DNA from: Microbacterium sp.
GTDB taxonomy: Bacteria; Actinomycetota; Actinomycetes; Actinomycetales; Microbacteriaceae
DNA length: 64,000 bases
NCBI RefSeq assembly: GCF_011620665.1
Contig: NZ_WOYQ01000031.1
Span: 1-64,000, forward strand
Reading direction: 5' to 3'
A program made the position numbers and the translations under genes. Below are positions 39,993-56,332 of this stretch, piece by piece. Every line of letters starts with the position of its first letter. Within the stretch, counting starts at the first letter, position 1. The notes under the pieces are model-generated. The model was given only the letters and a program-made list of their open reading frames with translations, did no database searches and was not told the DNA's origin.

Positions 39993-40424
39993 ATGCTGCT
40001 GGGCACCTACACCCCCAAGCTCGACGACAAGGGCCGAGTCATACTTCCCGCGAAGTTCCGCACCGACCTCGGTGACGGCGTCGTCGTCACCCGCGGTCAA
40101 GAGCGCTGCCTGTACGTGTTCAGCACGAACGAGTTCGAGCGCGTCTACGAGAAGATCCGCGAAGCGCCGCTCACCAACAAGCAGGCCCGTGACTTCCAGC
40201 GCATGTTCCTCTCCGGGGCGAGCGATGAGAAGCCCGACGGGCAGAGTCGCATCACGATTCCTCCGCCTCTGCGCACCTATGCCCACCTCGGACGCGAGCT
40301 CGTTGTGACCGGAGTCGGCGCGCACGCAGAGATCTGGGACGCGGATGCCTGGAACGCCTATGCCGAAGGAAACGAAGACAGCTACTCGGACATGGAGCAG
40401 GAGGTGATCCCGGGCTTGTTCTGA
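39993..40424 (+). CDS. mraZ: Transcriptional regulator MraZ
   Basis: 143-residue AbrB-like DNA-binding protein, first gene of the dcw cluster. Two tandem MraZ folds are evident, with [13 protein letters not shown] (residues 11-23) and the partner [16 protein letters not shown]. MraZ binds the AAGTGG array upstream as an oligomer ring and represses the cluster. GGGGAGGG precedes the ATG. Length is standard. Confidence 0.95.
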
Positions 40425-41482: not shown

Positions 41483-42060
41483 GCGCTGATCTGCTGGCGG
41501 TCGGTTCGCCGGCGCCGGCGCCGGAGCGCGAGTGGACTGCCCGTCTACGCGCCGTCGAAACCCCGCAGCCCGCTCGTCGACCCCGCCTGCTCTATGGACT
41601 CGTCGCTGTCGCCGTGGCGATCCTGATCGGTGCGACGCAGATGGGACTGTCCGTCCTGACGACTCAGACGTCCTACGACATCGCAACGCTCACGCAGGAG
41701 CATCGCGCGCTCGACTGGCAGCAGCAGATACTCGAAGATCAGGTGGCCGGCCTCAGTTCGCCGCAGTATCTTGCAGCCAACGCCTCGGCTCTCGGCATGG
41801 TCGTCGGTCAGCCGCCCAGCTACCTCCGCCTCAGCGACCGCGCGATCATCGGCGACAGTGCGGGAGCCACGGGAGTGACCTCGATCGACGCGCTGACAAA
41901 GGCCGCGGTTCCCAACGCACTGATCGGTGGCGTGCCTCTCGTGACGGATCCGGCATCCAGCCTCAGCAGCGGCGCGACCGTCGAGACGGTCGCCCTCGCG
42001 GCCGATTCCCCGACACCCCCCGCGATCGCCGACGGTCTGCCGACTCCCGACACACACTGA
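41479..42060 (+). CDS. ftsL: FtsL-like septum formation protein
   Basis: 193 residues with a basic/proline-rich cytoplasmic N-terminus (to ~37), one membrane helix ([19 protein letters not shown]) and an extracytoplasmic leucine-zipper-like stretch ([36 protein letters not shown]), the pattern of FtsL/FtsB-type septal scaffold proteins. The long C-terminal tail is low in complexity. Position between rsmH and ftsI fits FtsL. Start overlaps rsmH (ATGA). Confidence 0.88.
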
Positions 42061-42065
42061 GAGAC

Positions 42066-43877
42066 ATGACGACTCGCGCCACCCGCAGTCCGCGCCGCCG
42101 CACGGTCGTCGCGCTCGCCGTCGTCCTCGCGGTGCTGTCGGTGTTCGTCGTTCGGCTGATTGACATCCAGGTCGTCAATGCGAGCGACCATGTCCAGGAC
42201 TCGCGGGACTACGCAACCGGGACGACCATCACGCTCCACGGCGGTCGAGGCGACATCATCGACACGAACGGGACGGTGCTGGCCGACAGCGCGACGCGCT
42301 ACGACGTGCAGATCGACCCGGCCCTGGCGGTCAAAGGTGCACCTCAGCGCGACGCCGACGGTGCCGTCGTGACCGGCCCCGACGGGGATCCCGTGATCAT
42401 CCCGTGGGCGTCGCTCGCGGCGCAGATCGCGACCATCACGGGACAATCCGCCGACGACGTGCAGAGGATCGTGGCGGACGCGCTGGCGATCGACTCCGAA
42501 TCGCAGTACGCGCTGATCAAGCAGCGGGTCTCGACCGAGCACTACCGGGCCCTCGCCGATCTGAAGCTTCCCTTCCTTTCGTTCCCGCCGGATCCGACGC
42601 GCACCTACCCCGATGGAGCGGTCGCCGGCAACCTGATCGGTTTCGTGGGATCGGATGGAACCCCCCTGGAGGGGCTGGAGAGCCTGCAGAACTCGTGCCT
42701 GGCGGGCGCAGACGGGAAGTTGATATACCAGCGCGGTGCCGACGGGGTCATCATCCCGGGCACCGAGGTGGAAACCGCTGCAACGGCGGGTGGCACTCTT
42801 CGTCTCACGATCGATTCTGACCTTCAGTGGTACATGCAGCAGCTGATCACCGAGGAAACCGACCGGCTGCAGGCCAACTGGGGCGGGATCATGGTCGTCG
42901 AGGTCGATACCGGGAAGATCCGGGTCGCCGCAGAAACCGACACCGTCGATCCGAATGATCCGGGCGCATCGGACGCGGAGAGCCGTGCCTCCAAGCTGCT
43001 GCGTTACTCCTACGAGCCCGGTTCGACGTTCAAGCCGGTGACCGCGGCGACCGGAATAGACGTCGGGGTCTTGACGCCGTTCACGACGGTCTACGACCCC
43101 GACCGGATGGAGTTCCCCAACGGCGCCGTGATCAACGACGACGAGCACCACGATCCGCTGACCCTGACCCTCAACGGTGCGCTCGTGCGATCCTCGAATG
43201 TCTCCATGTCCCAATTCGGCGCGATGATCGATCCGCAGACGCGACTGGACTACTTGCAGAAGTTTGGCGTGGGGCAGGGCACCGCTCTGGATTGGTCGGG
43301 CGAGCCACAGGGCAGCTATCACGAGGTCGCGGACTGGGACAATCAGACCTACTACACGACGACCTTCGGCCAGGCGTTCACCGTGACCGTCCCGCAGGTC
43401 GCGAGCGTGTACCAGACGATCGCAAACGGCGGGGTGCGTGAACCCCTGTCCCTCGTGGAGTCGTGCACCGCCGCGGACGGCACGGTGACCACCCCGGCGC
43501 GCCCTGAACCCGTCCAGGTCATCAGGCAAGACACGGCGGCGCAGGTCGGTCAGATGCTCGAGAACGTGTTCGCGCAGGGCACGCTGGCCGACGATGTGAG
43601 GATCCCGGGGTACCGCGTCGCCGGGAAGACCGGGACTGCCCAGGTCTCGAACGGGGCTGGCGGCTACAAGGACGGTGTGTATTTCACCTCCCTCATCGGT
43701 TACGCACCCGTCGACGATCCGAAGTACGTTGTCATCACGGTCTTCGACGAGCCGCAGACGGTGCGCATGTCGTCGGCCAACCGCACGTCGTTCAAGAAGG
43801 CCATGACCCAGGTGCTCACGCACTATCGCATCATGCCGTCCGGCTCGACGACGCCGTTGCTTCCCGTGACACCATGA
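42066..43877 (+). CDS. ftsI: Septal penicillin-binding protein (FtsI/PBP3, class B)
   Basis: 603-residue transpeptidase that crosslinks septal peptidoglycan. Short cytoplasmic N-terminus, one membrane anchor (VVALAVVLAVLSVFVVRLIDI), a dimerisation domain, and a penicillin-binding domain with SxxK (GSTFKP, S320-K323), SSN (S376-N378) and KTGT (K521). ATG at 42066 follows ftsL by 5 bases. The next gene is murF after 30 bp, not murE as in most dcw clusters. Confidence 0.95.
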   Translation: MTTRATRSPRRRTVVALAVVLAVLSVFVVRLIDIQVVNASDHVQDSRDYATGTTITLHGGRGDIIDTNGTVLADSATRYDVQIDPALAVKGAPQRDADGAVVTGPDGDPVIIPWASLAAQIATITGQSADDVQRIVADALAIDSESQYALIKQRVSTEHYRALADLKLPFLSFPPDPTRTYPDGAVAGNLIGFVGSDGTPLEGLESLQNSCLAGADGKLIYQRGADGVIIPGTEVETAATAGGTLRLTIDSDLQWYMQQLITEETDRLQANWGGIMVVEVDTGKIRVAAETDTVDPNDPGASDAESRASKLLRYSYEPGSTFKPVTAATGIDVGVLTPFTTVYDPDRMEFPNGAVINDDEHHDPLTLTLNGALVRSSNVSMSQFGAMIDPQTRLDYLQKFGVGQGTALDWSGEPQGSYHEVADWDNQTYYTTTFGQAFTVTVPQVASVYQTIANGGVREPLSLVESCTAADGTVTTPARPEPVQVIRQDTAAQVGQMLENVFAQGTLADDVRIPGYRVAGKTGTAQVSNGAGGYKDGVYFTSLIGYAPVDDPKYVVITVFDEPQTVRMSSANRTSFKKAMTQVLTHYRIMPSGSTTPLLPVTP

Positions 43878-43907
43878 CGCGCCTCGCCGCGTGAGAAACC
43901 AGACACC

Positions 43908-45320
43908 ATGATCCGCATGACCCTGGCCGAGGTGGCCGCCGCCGTCGCAGGGACCTTGCACACAGCGGGGGAGGACGCCCCTGCTACCGTGGTCAGCGGT
44001 ATCGTCGACACCGACTCTCGGACGATCGGCCCGGGTGACATCTTCGTCGCCAAACCGGGGGAGACGACCGACGGTCACCTTTTCGTGCCGGAGGTCGCCC
44101 GCGCGGGGGCGGCCCTCGCGATCGTCGAGCACTCGGTGGATGCTGCCATCTCCCAGATCGTGGTGCCCGATGCCGTGGCCGCCCTCGCCGACCTCGCACG
44201 TGAGGTCGTCGCCCGTGTCCGCGCCGGAGGGCAGCTGACGATCGTCGGCATCACCGGCTCCAACGGCAAGACCACCACGAAGAACCTTCTTGCCCGAATC
44301 CTCCAGGACGAGGGCGAGACCGTCGCCCCCCGCGGGTCGTACAACAACGAAGTGGGCGCACCCCTGACGATGCTCCGTGTCACGGAGGACACTCGATTCC
44401 TCGTGTCGGAGTTCGGCGCGTCCGGCCCCGGCCAGATCGCCCGGCTCGCGGGGCTGGTCACCCCGGATATCGGCGTGGTCCTGATGGTCGGCCTCGCGCA
44501 CGCCGGGGGCTTCGGAGGGGTGGAAGCGACGCTGAAAGCCAAGACCGAGCTCGTCGAAGCCGTCCGCCCGGGCGGCACCGCAGTGCTCAACGCCGACGAT
44601 GCGCGGGTCACGACGATGGCGGCCGTCGCGGAGGCGCGCGGTCAGTCCGTCCGCTGGTTCGGCCGGGGATCCTCTGCCGAGGTGCGTGCCGAGGACGTCG
44701 AGGTCTCGGCATCCGGGACGACCTGCACGATCGTCGTAGGAGAGGAGCGGCTGCCGTTGCGACTGCGCGTCCTCGGCGAACACCACGTGATGAATGCCCT
44801 TGCCGCGCTGACGGCGGCCCGGGAGATCGGCGTTTCGGCGACCGACGCGATCGCTCGGCTGGAGACGGTCGCGCTCGCCGAACGCTGGCGCATGCAGCCC
44901 CTGGGATCCGACCGTGTGCGCATCATCAACGATGCGTACAACGCGAGCCCGGACTCGATGGCTGCGGCGTTGCGCACGCTCGCGCAGATCGTGGAGCCCG
45001 GACAGCGCAAAGTCGCCGTGCTCGGCGCCATGAGCGAGCTAGGGGTGTACGCCGGCGAAGAGCATGACCGCGTGGGGCTGCTCGCGGTGCGACTGGGAAT
45101 CGAGCGCATCGTCGTGGTCGGCCCCGAGGCTCGACGGCTCTTCATCGCGGCGATCGGCGAGGGTTCGTGGGACGGAGAGGCGGTCTTCTTCGCAACGGCC
45201 GATGAAGCGTACGACTATCTCCTGGACGAGCTTCGCGACGGTGATCGCGTGCTGGTCAAATCGTCGAACTCTGCAGGGTTGCGGCATCTCGGTGATCGTC
45301 TGGGAGAATTCTTCTCGTGA
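43908..45320 (+). CDS. murF: UDP-MurNAc-tripeptide-D-Ala-D-Ala ligase
   Basis: 470-residue Mur ligase adding D-Ala-D-Ala to the tripeptide precursor. N-terminal MurF domain (LAEVAAAVAGTLH ... SGIVDTDSRTIGPGDIFVA), ATP loop GITGSNGKTTTKN, and the MurF-specific NDAYNASPDSMAAAL motif. MurE would instead lack the NAYNANP block and carry a DxxP/DNPR-type amino-acid motif, which is not present, so it is MurF. GTGA overlap with mraY. Confidence 0.95.
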   Translation: MIRMTLAEVAAAVAGTLHTAGEDAPATVVSGIVDTDSRTIGPGDIFVAKPGETTDGHLFVPEVARAGAALAIVEHSVDAAISQIVVPDAVAALADLAREVVARVRAGGQLTIVGITGSNGKTTTKNLLARILQDEGETVAPRGSYNNEVGAPLTMLRVTEDTRFLVSEFGASGPGQIARLAGLVTPDIGVVLMVGLAHAGGFGGVEATLKAKTELVEAVRPGGTAVLNADDARVTTMAAVAEARGQSVRWFGRGSSAEVRAEDVEVSASGTTCTIVVGEERLPLRLRVLGEHHVMNALAALTAAREIGVSATDAIARLETVALAERWRMQPLGSDRVRIINDAYNASPDSMAAALRTLAQIVEPGQRKVAVLGAMSELGVYAGEEHDRVGLLAVRLGIERIVVVGPEARRLFIAAIGEGSWDGEAVFFATADEAYDYLLDELRDGDRVLVKSSNSAGLRHLGDRLGEFFS

Positions 45321-46426
45321 GATCACTGCTTGCCGCCGCCACGATCTCGCTCGCGTTCACGCTGTTCCTGACGCCGCTGTTCATCCGCCTCTTCGAGAAG
45401 CTGGGGTGGGGTCAGGTCATCCGCACCCCGGAAGACGCGACGAATCCGAATCACGAATCGAAGCGCGGAACACCCACGATGGGCGGCATCATCTTCATCC
45501 TGGGTGCTGTCATCGGCTACTTCGTGGGAACGCTCACGGGTGGGGCGCCGCCGACGCTCTCCGGACTCTTGGTCATCTGGATGATGATCGGGCTGGGTGC
45601 CGTCGGCTTCGTCGACGACCTCATGAAGGTGCGCCAGCAGCGCAGCCTGGGCCTCTCGGGCTGGCGAAAGGTGATCGGGCAGATCGCTGTCGCGGTGCCG
45701 TTCGGCATCGTCGCGCTGAATTTTCCGAACTCCTACGGTCAGACGCCGGCGTCGCCCTACATCTCCTTCTTCCGCGACATCCCGATGCTGTCCTTCATGG
45801 CACTGGGTGCTGTCGTCGGCTGGATCGTCTACCTCATCTGGGTGTCCTTCATGTCGGTCGCGTGGTCCAACGCCACCAACCTCACCGACGGTCTGGACGG
45901 ACTGGCAACGGGCGCGGGCATCTTCACCGTGTCGGCCTACAGTCTCGTCACTTTCTGGCAGTTTCAGCAGCGGTGCCACACCAGCGAGCTGGTGGATGCG
46001 TATGTGACCGCGTGCTACCCGACCCGAGATCCCATGGACCTCACGATCGTCGCGGCCTCGTTCGTCGGCGCCCTCGTCGGATTCCTGTGGTGGAACGCGC
46101 CCAAAGCGCGGATCTTCATGGGCGACGTCGGCTCCATGGCCATCGGTGGAGTCATCGTCGCCATGGCGGTGCTCTCGCGCACCGAGATCTTGTCCGTGAT
46201 CATCGCGGGCGTCTTCATCATCGGTCCGGGATCGGTCATCCTGCAGCGCTACTACTTCAAGGCGACCGGGGGCAAGCGCCTGTTCCTGATGAGTCCGTTC
46301 CACCACCATCTCGAGATGCGCGGGTGGCCTGAGATCACGATCGTGGTCCGGATGTGGATCATCGCCGGCATGCTCGCCGTCGCTGGGGTGGGCCTGTTCT
46401 ACGTCGCCTGGCTCGCAGCACTGTGA
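45317..46426 (+). CDS. mraY: Phospho-N-acetylmuramoyl-pentapeptide transferase
   Basis: 369-residue integral membrane enzyme that makes lipid I from UDP-MurNAc-pentapeptide and undecaprenyl phosphate. About ten hydrophobic helices; signature residues in FVDDLMK, NATNLTDGLDGLATG, FMGDVGSMAIGG and the FHHHLEMRGW loop. GTG start overlaps murF by 4 bases and its stop overlaps murD (GTGA). Confidence 0.96.
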   Translation: MRSLLAAATISLAFTLFLTPLFIRLFEKLGWGQVIRTPEDATNPNHESKRGTPTMGGIIFILGAVIGYFVGTLTGGAPPTLSGLLVIWMMIGLGAVGFVDDLMKVRQQRSLGLSGWRKVIGQIAVAVPFGIVALNFPNSYGQTPASPYISFFRDIPMLSFMALGAVVGWIVYLIWVSFMSVAWSNATNLTDGLDGLATGAGIFTVSAYSLVTFWQFQQRCHTSELVDAYVTACYPTRDPMDLTIVAASFVGALVGFLWWNAPKARIFMGDVGSMAIGGVIVAMAVLSRTEILSVIIAGVFIIGPGSVILQRYYFKATGGKRLFLMSPFHHHLEMRGWPEITIVVRMWIIAGMLAVAGVGLFYVAWLAAL

Positions 46427-47970
46427 CGGCACGTACGGACTCCCTGAACAGTTGGCACGCTGACTGGGCGGGTCTGCGCGTCGCGGTTCTCGGGCTGTCC
46501 GTGACGGGTTTCGCGGTCGCCGACACGCTCGCCGAGCTCGGCGCGGACGTGTACGTCTTCACCGAGCGGGCAGACGAGGAGTATGAGCGGCTGCTTCCGG
46601 TCATCGGCGCTCGACAGTGGATCGGACTGCTCGACGCGGTTCCGGGTGTGCTGACAGACTTCGCACCGGAGATCGTCGTCGCGTCGCCTGGTTTCCCCCC
46701 GCACCACCCCGTGATCGCCTGGGCGCGGGAGAACGGCATCGAACTGTGGGGTGATGTCGAGCTTGCCTGGCGCGTGCGCGACAAGGTCACTCGCGGGGAC
46801 GGCCGTCCCGCCGACTGGGTGCTCATCACCGGCACCAACGGCAAGACGACCACGACACGACTGACCGCGACCATGCTCGCGTCCGGTGGTCTGCGGGCGG
46901 CGCCGTGCGGCAATATCGGCATCCCGGTACTCGACGCCGTCCGTGATCCGGCCGGGTTCGACGTCTTGGTCGTGGAACTTTCCAGCCACCAGCTCTGGTA
47001 CCTCTCGCAGCACAGCGGTCCGGATCCCCTCTCGCCCTTTGCAAGCGTCTGCCTCAACCTCGCCGACGACCACCTCGAGTGGCACGGATCGGCTCGCGCC
47101 TACCGCGACGCAAAGGCGTTCGTCTACCAGCACACGCGCACGGCCTGCGTTTACAACAAGTCGGATGCCGCCACCCGAGTGATGGTGGAGGAGGCGGACG
47201 TCATCGATGGATGCCGCGCCGTCGGGTTCGATCTAGGAGTTCCCGGACCCGGTGATCTCGGTGTCGTGGACGGCATCCTCGTGGACCGCGCCTTCCTGGA
47301 GGAGCGATCCACGAGCGCCCTCGAGCTGACCACGGTCGCCGAGCTCGCCGAGCGAGGGCTGGCTGCACCGCACATCGTGGCGAACGCGCTGGCCGCGGCG
47401 GCTCTCGCCCGCTCACTCGGCGTCACGCCCGAGGCGATTCGCGACGCGCTGCGTGGTTTTCACCTCGATCCGCACCGGATCGAGGTCGTCGCCGTCTCGG
47501 CCGGCATCACCTGGGTGGATGATTCGAAGGCCACCAACCCGCACGCGGCGGATTCGTCCCTGGCCGCCTATCCCGGCGCGGTGTGGATCGTCGGGGGTCT
47601 GCTGAAGGGGGTCGACATCGCCGGGTTGGTCGCCGGCCGTGGTGGCCGTGTGAAGGCCGCGATAGTGATCGGGGTCGACCGCAGCGAGATCACCGAGGCG
47701 TTCGCCCGACACGCGCCCGCGGTTCCCGTGTTCGAAGTCGACCACGCTCAGACTGAAGACATCATGGCAGAGGTCGTCGAAGTGTCGGCGGGCGTCGCGC
47801 ATGCCGGAGACGTGGTCCTTCTCGCTCCGGCTGCGGCATCCTTCGATCAGTTCGAGTCCTACTCGGACCGGGGGCGGCGCTTCGCCGACGCGGTCCGCGA
47901 ACGGATCGGGAGGGGGACCGGTGACCACCACGACGTCGAACCCGACCCGTCCGGCACATCCGAGGCCTGA
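46423..47970 (+). CDS. murD: UDP-MurNAc-L-alanine-D-glutamate ligase
   Basis: 515-residue Mur ligase that adds D-glutamate. Rossmann-like N-terminus LRVAVLGLSVTGFAVADTL, ATP loop ITGTNGKTTTTRL, and DDSKATNPHAADSSL, typical of MurD. GTG at 46423 overlaps mraY. The last ~20 residues are an acidic tail and the final 50 bases overlap the following ftsW gene in another frame, longer than the usual 4-base overlap. Confidence 0.95.
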   Translation: MTARTDSLNSWHADWAGLRVAVLGLSVTGFAVADTLAELGADVYVFTERADEEYERLLPVIGARQWIGLLDAVPGVLTDFAPEIVVASPGFPPHHPVIAWARENGIELWGDVELAWRVRDKVTRGDGRPADWVLITGTNGKTTTTRLTATMLASGGLRAAPCGNIGIPVLDAVRDPAGFDVLVVELSSHQLWYLSQHSGPDPLSPFASVCLNLADDHLEWHGSARAYRDAKAFVYQHTRTACVYNKSDAATRVMVEEADVIDGCRAVGFDLGVPGPGDLGVVDGILVDRAFLEERSTSALELTTVAELAERGLAAPHIVANALAAAALARSLGVTPEAIRDALRGFHLDPHRIEVVAVSAGITWVDDSKATNPHAADSSLAAYPGAVWIVGGLLKGVDIAGLVAGRGGRVKAAIVIGVDRSEITEAFARHAPAVPVFEVDHAQTEDIMAEVVEVSAGVAHAGDVVLLAPAAASFDQFESYSDRGRRFADAVRERIGRGTGDHHDVEPDPSGTSEA

Positions 47971-50377: not shown

Positions 50378-51778
50378 ATGATTCGACCCGACCTCACCCT
50401 CCCGATACCCGCGGATATCACTGCCGCCCATTTCATCGGCATCGGGGGATCGGGCATGTCGGGACTGGCCGGCATGTTCCTGGACCGCGGCATCCGCGTG
50501 TCAGGATCGGACCGTGCCGACAGCGCTGCTCTTCGGGCACTCGCCGTGCGCGGCGCGAGCGTGCATGTGGGCCACGACGCGTCGAATCTGCCCGATGGCG
50601 TCGACGCCGTGATCCACACCGGTGCGATCTGGCCGGACAACCCCGAATTCGTCCTCGCGAGAGAGCGAGGACTGCCCGTCATCCATCGCTCGCAGGCCCT
50701 GCACTGGCTCATCGGCGGCCGCCGGCTCGTGTCGGTCGCCGGCGCGCACGGAAAGACGACCTCGACCGGAATGATCGTCACGGCGCTGCGCGCGCTCGAG
50801 GCAGATCCGACCTTCGTCAGCGGCGGTGTCATCGCCGACCTCGGCATCTCGAGCGGTACCGGCGCCGATGACCTCTTCGTCATCGAGGCGGACGAATCCG
50901 ATGGCACTTTTCTGCTCTACGACACCTCGATCGCCCTCATCACCAACGTCGATCCCGATCACCTCGACCACTGGGAATCGCGCGACGCTTTCTACGCGGG
51001 CTTCGTGCGCTTCGGCAACGCGGCCCGCGAGGCGGTCGTGATCTCATCCGACGATTCCGGGGCCCGGCGCGTGGCCGCGGCGCTCGCGCATCGCACGGTC
51101 ATCACGTTCGGCACGGATGACGGTGCGGATGTCCGAGTGGGCGACATCGTCACCGAGGGTTCGGTGCGCTTCACGCTCACTCACGCCGGAGTCACCGTCG
51201 ACGGCGCGCTGGTGCTCCCGGGAGCCCACAATGCGATCAACGCCGCGGGTGCCGTCGCGGTGCTGCTCACCCTCGGCTACCGGCTCGAGCCCGCTCTGCG
51301 GGCAGTGGAAGGCTTCGGCGGCACGGTGCGCCGCTTCGAACTCCACGGCATCGCGCGCGGAGTGAGCGTGTACGACGACTACGCGCACCACCCGACTGAG
51401 GTCGCCGCGGCGCTCGACGCGGCGCGCAGCGTCGTCGGACCGGGCCGCTTGATCGCCCTTCACCAGCCGCACACCTACTCCCGCACGCAGGAGATGTACC
51501 GTGAGTTCGCCGAGGTCCTCGAATCGCGAGCCGATCACACTGTGGTTCTCGACGTGTACGGCGCGCGCGAAGACCCCGTTCCGGGTGTGACGGGTGCGCT
51601 GGTCAGCGGGGCATTCGTGGACCCCGAGAAGGTTCATTTCGTCGCCGACTGGGATGATGCGGCCGCGTATGCGGCGTCGGTTGCGCGCGCCGGTGACTTC
51701 ATCATCACCCTCGGCTGCGGCAACGTGCACCTCATCATTCCGCAGGTACTGCAGGCCCTGTCCGCTGCGGAAGGCTAG
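50378..51778 (+). CDS. murC: UDP-MurNAc-L-alanine ligase
   Basis: 466-residue Mur ligase adding L-alanine, the first peptide step. [20 protein letters not shown] (UDP-binding), [15 protein letters not shown] (ATP loop), and [18 protein letters not shown] and [10 protein letters not shown], typical of MurC. Separated from murG by 104 bp containing a hairpin and a TAGACT box, so part of the cluster may be read from here. ftsQ follows 3 bases later. Confidence 0.95.
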
Positions 51779-55714: not shown

Positions 55715-56332
55715 ATGGCTTTGACCCCAGAAGACGTCGTCACCAAACAGTTCCAGCACGTTCGCTTCAAGGAGGGCTTCGATCCGGATGAGGTCGACGA
55801 CTTCCTCGATGAGATCGTGGTCGAGTGGCGGAAGACGATTGCCGAGAACGATGAACTGAAGGCGAAGCTCGCCGCGTACGAATCGGGCGACGCGCCCGCA
55901 CAGGTCGCGCTCGCTCTCGTCGACGAAGTGGTCGTTGAGGAAGAATCGGCGCCGATCTCTGCGATCGTCGCGGAGGTTCCCGTGGCCGCGGAAGAGCCGG
56001 CCCTGGTGGCAGGGGGCGGTGGTGCCTCCGCTTCGGCCGGCATTCTCGAACTCGCGCAGCGTCTGCACGATGAGCACGTCGCCGAGGGTCTGGCCCAGCG
56101 TGACAGGCTCATCTCCGAGGCCGAGATCCAGGCGCACGCGATCGTCTCTGAGGCCAAGGCGAAGGGACGCGACGAGCTCGCCCGTCTCGAGGCCGACCGC
56201 GCGACGCTCGAGACCCGCATCAGCGAGCTGCGCCAGTTCGAGAGCGACTACCGCAACCAGCTCCGCGGATTCATCGAGGAGAAGCTCCGCGATCTCGACG
56301 TCACCGGCGCGACCTCGACCGTCAGCCGCTGA
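55715..56332 (+). CDS. wag31: Polar growth protein DivIVA/Wag31
   Basis: 205-residue coiled-coil protein that marks the poles and directs apical wall growth. N-terminal membrane-binding domain PEDVVTKQFQHVRFKEGFDPDEVDDFLDEI, first coiled coil, a Pro/Ala/acidic linker (about 50-105), and a second long coiled coil to the end. Mycobacterial Wag31 is phosphorylated on Thr in the linker by PASTA kinases; Ser/Thr residues here (e.g. EEESAPIS) are candidates only. AGAGGTAA precedes the ATG. Confidence 0.95.
   Translation: MALTPEDVVTKQFQHVRFKEGFDPDEVDDFLDEIVVEWRKTIAENDELKAKLAAYESGDAPAQVALALVDEVVVEEESAPISAIVAEVPVAAEEPALVAGGGGASASAGILELAQRLHDEHVAEGLAQRDRLISEAEIQAHAIVSEAKAKGRDELARLEADRATLETRISELRQFESDYRNQLRGFIEEKLRDLDVTGATSTVSR

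Follow-up and report, generated by a model that had tools for sequence, protein, structure and literature searches.

The window, a 64,000-nucleotide stretch of a Microbacterium sp. genome (G000), carries a dcw cluster that begins with mraZ (39993..40424, + strand; PF02381) and ends with wag31/divIVA (55715..56332, + strand; PF05103). The genes follow the order mraZ, mraW, an ORF of 193 aa in the place of ftsL, ftsI, murF, mraY, murD, ftsW, murG, murC, ftsQ, ftsZ, sepF (a PF04472 match), and wag31. We named mraW, mraY, ftsW, murG, ftsQ, and ftsZ by reading and matched their order in related loci by tblastn. A Pfam search with the 193-aa ORF returned no match, and the name ftsL is therefore positional only. 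On the + strand, ftsI (P0001; 42066..43877) encodes a PBP transpeptidase (PF00905, PF03717) whose start is inferred; the mechanical ORF opens at 41532, and translation more likely begins at the ATG at 42066 (residue 179). Next on this strand come murF (P0002; 43908..45320), which scores 392.6 bits against TIGR01143 (cut-off, 288.6), and mraY (45317..46426), assigned by its position and by tblastn, which places it in the corresponding order in related loci. They are followed by murD (46354..47970, with a true start probably downstream of 46354) and murC (50378..51778), both + strand and above the cut-offs of TIGR01087 and TIGR01082, respectively.

Between the ftsI stop codon (43875-43877) and the murF ATG (43908) lies a gap of 30 bp (43878..43907, + strand). 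This is the murE site in most of the family, and here it holds no murE. Both observations from which the earlier note started are thus correct: ftsI and murF lie 30 bp apart without murE, and the rest of the cluster from mraZ to wag31 is in its usual order by profiles, reading, and tblastn. A search of the whole genome with the MurE described below (P0005) as query (E ≤ 10) detected no murE remnant in the gap.

P0005 is a full-length MurE of 521 aa encoded on contig C49 (22389-23951) of the same genome, between ispG and proS. All three genes share one strand, with 44 bp between ispG and murE and 78 bp from murE to the proS start as listed, and the neighbours read in order rseP, adcS, ispG (by TIGR00612), murE, proS, nusA, and infB; murE may be co-expressed with ispG and proS. 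In locus L006 of this genome (3275-5584), a long ORF reading like pyruvate formate-lyase lies between dxr and rseP on the opposite strand. P0005 scores 290.9 bits against the murE profile TIGR01085 (cut-off, 257.3) and contains the middle (PF08245) and C-terminal (PF02875) Mur ligase domains and the P-loop GTNGKT; the N-terminal domain PF01225 was undetected by the Pfam search. The carbamate Lys column (Lys238) is Lys in all 220 rows counted, with 4 partial rows excluded. The AlphaFold model has a mean pLDDT of 90.3. When it was compared with the PDB, the first 34 rows were MurE, MurE-MurF, or plastid MurE-like entries, followed by MurF, with TM scores of 0.90 to 8g6p and 0.86 to S. aureus 4c12.

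We searched the whole genome (2.2 Mb in 82 contigs, 99.55% complete, 1.5% estimated contamination) for Mur ligases and found five Mur_ligase_M loci: the window holds three of them (murF, murD, and murC), C76 carries folC (with flanking ORFs read as valS and ndk), and C49 carries the MurE. With P0005 as query (E ≤ 10), no second MurE was found in the genome, the remaining matches being murC and one chance-level match; murF, ispG, and MurE are each single-copy. The full-length gene on C49 rules out loss of murE. Replacement of MurE by another Mur ligase is likewise ruled out, as the other four loci score as murF, murD, murC, and folC. Since MurE is encoded on C49, murE has moved rather than been lost: it is relocated to C49 and retained as MurE by profile and fold. 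Of the relocated or replaced tripeptide ligase that the earlier note had envisaged, the relocated one is what the genome contains.

We then surveyed the position of murE across the genus. A match to P0005 was detected in 118 of 119 same-genus genomes, and 107 of the 119, G000 included, carry a P0005-like murE (53-100% identical). No contig of these 107 genomes carries this murE and murF 5 kb or less apart. Among the 103 that have murE and ispG on one contig, murE is upstream of ispG on the opposite strand in 98, upstream on the same strand in 4, and downstream on the same strand in 1; the 102 upstream genes are 3.5 to 16 kb from ispG. The single downstream case, in the ispG-proS interval, is G000. 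Because G000 alone has murE just downstream of ispG, the gene has moved a second time in its lineage, a step that none of the other 102 shows. The survey rules out an artefact of the G000 assembly alone and excludes the situation, named beforehand as a check, in which close relatives all keep murE inside the dcw cluster.

The closest genus MurE to P0005 is that of genus genome G132 (77% identical), which sits at the rseP-divergent place; the remaining P0005-like genus MurE proteins are 53-61% identical to P0005, with murF at 68-86%. Comparison with named genomes gave G000 murF identities of 73-76% to three Microbacterium genomes and 56-65% to Rathayibacter, Galbitalea, and Curtobacterium (the Curtobacterium match being partial). 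Gene order is shared with six named Microbacterium records. Together with the MurE tree described below, the murF identities and the gene order point to Microbacterium as the genus surveyed. In three genus genomes (G126:C1:1423057-1424605, G203:C1:1204653-1206205, and G209:C1:2994603-2996151), the P0005-like murE appears as two adjoining matches, a pattern that a frameshift or sequencing error would give. A literature search, covering titles and abstract openings of the papers listed, found nothing on murE outside the dcw cluster in Microbacterium.

Across the family, P0005 matched in 119 of 120 genomes, the one exception being G081 (78% complete). A P0005-like murE match lies no more than 3 kb from the murF match in 82 of the 120, which is the family norm from which G000 departs, in answer to the question of dcw synteny raised by the earlier note. 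These 82 include truncated copies in G020 and G100 and, in G015, a murE 1.2 kb away, behind mraY. In 10 genomes, murE follows ftsI in the dcw cluster (G114, G080, G074, G037, G067, G111, G029, G104, G065, and G030), before a reduced murF in nine and at a contig end in G065. Thirteen genomes, G000 included, have murE in the rseP region, divergent from rseP in 12 of the 13. It lies elsewhere in four (G097, G027, G053, and G054, the last as two contig-end pieces), and in 10 the sole match is 28-36% identical and away from murF (G003, G005, G018, G019, G024, G058, G059, G082, G088, and G099).

The family survey also revealed irregular murF and murE genes. In 10 family genomes, the dcw murF is an ORF of 164-344 aa, between murE and mraY, that best matches the C-terminal part of MurF (L039, L041, L042, L044, L045, L046, L048, L118, L065, and L069), and several of these genomes carry a divergent or second MurF-like gene elsewhere. 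On the dcw tree, the reduced-murF genomes do not group together as a single clade, so the reduction seems recurrent. The dcw murE copy has lost conserved motifs in G068 (L140) and is shortened in G020 (L177) and G100 (G100:C1:1595691-1596821), each of which has another MurE copy elsewhere in the genome; these decayed copies are possible intermediates of replacement. G116 and G045 each have three MurE genes, with dcw FHPR/GPGHE, HHPR/GPGHQ, and HHPR/GPGDT pockets (L047, L058, L049, L059), and the HHPR/GPGHQ copy of G116 is nearly identical to that of Rathayibacter Leaf185 (L195).

Alignment of P0005 with mycobacterial MurE revealed that TDDNPR is replaced by TDHHPR and GKGHE by GPGHQ, giving pocket residues H435, H436, R438, and Q493. 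Both acidic positions that bind the side-chain amine in characterized MurE enzymes are thus His and Gln in P0005. The meso-DAP signature (DNPR and the Glu of GKGHE) is absent, with HHPR and Gln493 in its place, and P0005 falls below the cut-off of all seven listed NCBIfam 2,6-diaminopimelate ligase equivalogs (best score, 359.4 versus 476). The L-Lys signature is absent as well, with His and Gln at the acidic positions and 150.6 bits against NF010628 (cut-off, 536). Judged by its sequence, the pocket speaks against a standard meso-DAP wall, the other refuting condition named in the earlier note.

We next read the same pocket across the surveyed genomes. HHPR/GPGHQ is present in 34 of 89 dcw rows, in 4 of 13 rseP-region family rows (G000, G106, G043, and G115), and in all 33 further genus rows; FHPR/GPGHE is present in 27 of the 89 dcw rows. 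Pocket readings cover 35 of the 107 genus genomes carrying a P0005-like murE (the 33 further rows, G000, and G106). There is no pocket row for G054 (murE split over two contig ends) or for G081 (without a match), and the partial rows G058, G099, G113, and G020 were left out of the pocket counts and of the 172-row MurE tree. The other nine rseP-region rows have HHPR/GLAGK (4), HHSR/GLASQ (3), or HQPR/GLAEK (2). They belong to nine genomes of Microbacterium-related genera (L052, L053, L055, L057, and L060-L064) in which the rseP-region MurE has a DSGH motif together with HHPR, HQPR, or HHSR, and GLAGK, GLAEK, or GLASQ replaces GPGHQ. Fifteen further genus MurE-like rows have other pockets (DNPA 6, DNPY 5, DDPH 2, and DNPR 2, the last short), and 5 of those 15 genomes also carry the rseP-region copy (G137, G199, G179, G236, and G176). 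A distance of some 50 kb separates the DNPA-type MurE (L290-L294, L289) from murF in G137, G199, G155, G166, and G198, and this type is the sole MurE found in G155, G164, G166, and G198.

A set of named relatives extends this picture: 51 rows from the best 80 of at least 427 relatives (at least 595 stretches). Within these 51 rows, 15 have HHPR/GPGHQ and 10 have FHPR/GPGHE. Streptomyces, Amycolatopsis, Saccharothrix, and similar genera, which have DAP walls in the three named, account for 10 rows with DNPR/GKGHE, and Arthrobacter, Promicromonospora, and relatives, the two named having Lys walls, for 7 rows with DDPH/GRGHE. ENPR/GKGHE occurs in Cellulomonas and Buchananella. The pocket is FNPR/GPGDA in Agrococcus, YNPR/GPGHE in Leucobacter, and FHPR/GPGHE in the Subtercola, Herbiconiux, and Cryobacterium genomes; HHPR/GPGHQ was found in a Rhodoluna sp. 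MAG and, outside the dcw cluster, in Rathayibacter Leaf185.

Relocation as the cause of the pocket is ruled out: 34 of 89 dcw rows share the P0005 pocket and 9 of 13 relocated rows have others, so relocation and specificity are unlinked. The earlier note had proposed a ligase of different specificity. That proposal is supported as far as a non-DAP pocket is concerned (HHPR for DNPR, Gln for Glu), but the implied tie between departure from the dcw cluster and a change of specificity is unsupported by these counts. The location of murE says nothing about its substrate.

To place the move in time, we built trees of dcw proteins and of MurE. On a FastTree phylogeny of seven dcw proteins, comprising the 135 of 169 assembled rows with at least three of six core proteins, the 13 rseP-region family genomes form one clade (support 0.99), which is consistent with one old move, and we infer a single ancestral relocation of murE. 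The MurE trees (172 rows and 73 rows) are quick trees built without a mixture model. On the former, G000 and G106 form one clade (support 99) with the P0005-like genus rows and the records named as Microbacterium, and the MurE of Microbacterium is nested together with HHPR/GPGHQ enzymes that other genera encode in the dcw cluster. On the reduced tree of 73 chosen rows, Microbacterium groups with G043 and G115 (support 91). In the best MurE trees, the MurE proteins of nine of the 13 rseP-region genomes, those with HHPR/GLAGK, HHSR/GLASQ, or HQPR/GLAEK pockets, branch apart from Microbacterium, and the grouping of G043/G115 with G002/G086 on the dcw tree (0.96) is missing from the MurE tree. Because the MurE tree splits the rseP-region rows and conflicts over G043/G115, replacement at the site is possible. 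A single clade of the 19 rseP-region rows of the reduced set was not rejected (p-AU 0.355).

Taken together, we consider it very likely that murE relocated in two steps and that its product is a complete ligase acting in trans on behalf of MurF and MraY, which are encoded in the dcw cluster. The departure from that cluster would go back to an ancestor of the Microbacterium clade, in which murE came to lie in the rseP region close to ispG, as a rule with rseP and murE divergent; a second move, on the branch leading to G000, would then have inserted it between ispG and proS in the orientation of these two genes. P0005 would act as a complete UDP-MurNAc-tripeptide ligase, supplying tripeptide to MurF and MraY. 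It is very improbable that an assembly or binning error underlies the pattern, with murE truly in the dcw cluster or C49 a contaminant. The genome is a draft with some estimated contamination, but the junctions lie deep in contigs (at 43.9 kb of C18, which is 70.1 kb long, and at 22.4 kb of C49, which is 41.1 kb long), the genome has one copy each of murF, ispG, and MurE, and the genus survey placed murE near murF in none of 107 genomes.

An unlikely alternative history is that a foreign gene at the new place replaced the dcw copy and brought the new specificity with it. Such a history would be in keeping with the second copies alongside decayed or truncated dcw copies in G068, G020, and G100, with the DNPA, DNPY, and DDPH MurE genes at other genus loci, whether beside a rseP-region copy or as the sole MurE found, and with the failure of the rseP-region MurE genes to form one clade in the best tree. 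G000 and its genus also have HHPR/GPGHQ, whereas their sister clade on the dcw tree mostly has FHPR/GPGHE in the dcw cluster. However, the topology test leaves a single rseP-region clade standing, and Microbacterium MurE nests among dcw-borne HHPR/GPGHQ proteins, so the move itself brought no pocket change. A foreign origin of P0005 alone is unnecessary, given its 77% identical relative at the rseP place in G132, although P0005 is more distant from the other P0005-like MurE proteins of the genus (53-61% identity) than murF is from its counterparts (68-86%).

Residue 3 of the stem is a long-used taxonomic marker of these bacteria, and homoserine is found at position 3 of the ornithine wall types of Microbacterium. 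Agromyces, Leifsonia, and Rathayibacter have diaminobutyrate walls. Judging from its genus, G000 would have a B-type peptidoglycan, cross-linked from D-Glu. Since H435 and Q493 replace both amine-binding acidic residues, and in light of the chemistry of related genera, we predict that stem residue 3 is probably L-homoserine, which is a testable prediction. Diaminobutyrate and homoserine differ only in an amine versus a hydroxyl, which the Glu-to-Gln exchange would suit. The chances are slightly better than even that the HHPR/GPGHQ MurE is a dedicated L-homoserine ligase, in which Q493 and H435 would switch recognition from an amine to its hydroxyl isostere and the pocket would read out residue 3 across B-type bacteria. 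Some observations count against homoserine. Arg438 is kept in P0005 although homoserine has no distal carboxylate, the FNPR/GPGDA pocket of Agrococcus misfits a simple rule equating Glu with diaminobutyrate, and Rathayibacter Leaf185, from a genus with diaminobutyrate walls, has a HHPR/GPGHQ MurE outside the dcw cluster.

Studies of characterized enzymes and walls bear on this prediction. In E. coli MurE, two residues of DNPR, Asn and Arg, contact the distal carboxylate of DAP, while its amine is bound by the Asp together with Glu468 (PMC3829189), the counterpart of Q493 in P0005. Rhodoluna lacicola has homoserine, with diaminobutyrate as D-Dab, in type B2beta (PMC4156110), a match to the HHPR/GPGHQ pocket at the level of the genus rather than the strain. 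Diaminobutyrate is reported for Subtercola, type B2gamma (PMC5945732), for Cryobacterium, with ornithine as well in one species (PMC12113805), and for Leucobacter (PMC4804768). Herbiconiux has type B2gamma with D- and L-diaminobutyrate, likewise in the five strains studied, although the species descriptions in the same source word the diamino acids differently; its strain CPCC 203407 is the strain of L235 (PMC10011130). In titles and abstract openings of the papers listed, we found no homoserine measurement for Microbacterium and no report of the enzyme or residues choosing homoserine or diaminobutyrate; passages of PMC12823222, PMC6113628, and PMC10384088 contain nothing on stem residue 3.

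It is also conceivable, if rather doubtful, that the P0005 pocket accepts L-Lys, L-DAB, or ornithine, with Gln and His tolerated. The Lys-wall genera Arthrobacter and Promicromonospora have DDPH/GRGHE, and P0005 lacks both acidic residues. The S. aureus enzyme grips the lysine amine through Asp406 and Glu460; an Ala in place of either lowers the affinity for lysine, and the E460A variant is very weak (PMC3829189). On the other side, the diamino acid reported for Microbacterium walls is D-ornithine, L-lysine, or diaminobutyrate (PMC10757982). MurE specificity is also set by more than the motif: DNPA, the lysine motif of S. aureus, is not the sole determinant, and metabolite pools matter (PMC3829189).

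If L-homoserine is the substrate, the pocket would tell stem residue 3 across B-type bacteria, wherever murE sits. Swaps of pocket type, as in the DNPA, DNPY, and DDPH copies, would then explain mixed wall chemistry in one genus, and the mixed lysine/ornithine walls of Microbacterium may come from such swaps. More generally, a gene absent from the dcw cluster need not be lost. The relocation is real and is shared by the genomes sampled from the genus; the function of the enzyme is ordinary and its pocket unusual.

The meso-DAP-adding mycobacterial MurE is like P0005 over the whole fold (TM 0.90 for 8g6p and 0.76-0.88 for the four 2wtz chains) and has the P-loop and domain order in common with it. 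In contrast, its TDDNPR/GKGHE corresponds to TDHHPR/GPGHQ in P0005, which would not be expected to bind meso-DAP. The L-Lys-adding MurE of S. aureus (4c12; TM 0.86) has a similar fold and adds a residue other than meso-DAP at position 3; its D406 and E460 are His and Gln in P0005, as placed via the mycobacterial MurE alignment (PMC3829189). The MurE proteins of Agromyces, Leifsonia, Cryobacterium, Subtercola, and Herbiconiux belong to the same family and are encoded in the dcw position, but have FHPR/GPGHE rather than the HHPR/GPGHQ of P0005. Alike in pocket are the dcw MurE proteins of Curtobacterium sp. 9128, Galbitalea soli, Salinibacterium sp., and Rhodoluna sp., which share HHPR/GPGHQ and are 50-53% identical to P0005 (among the best 80 of at least 427 relatives). 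These four are encoded between ftsI and murF, whereas P0005 is encoded near ispG.
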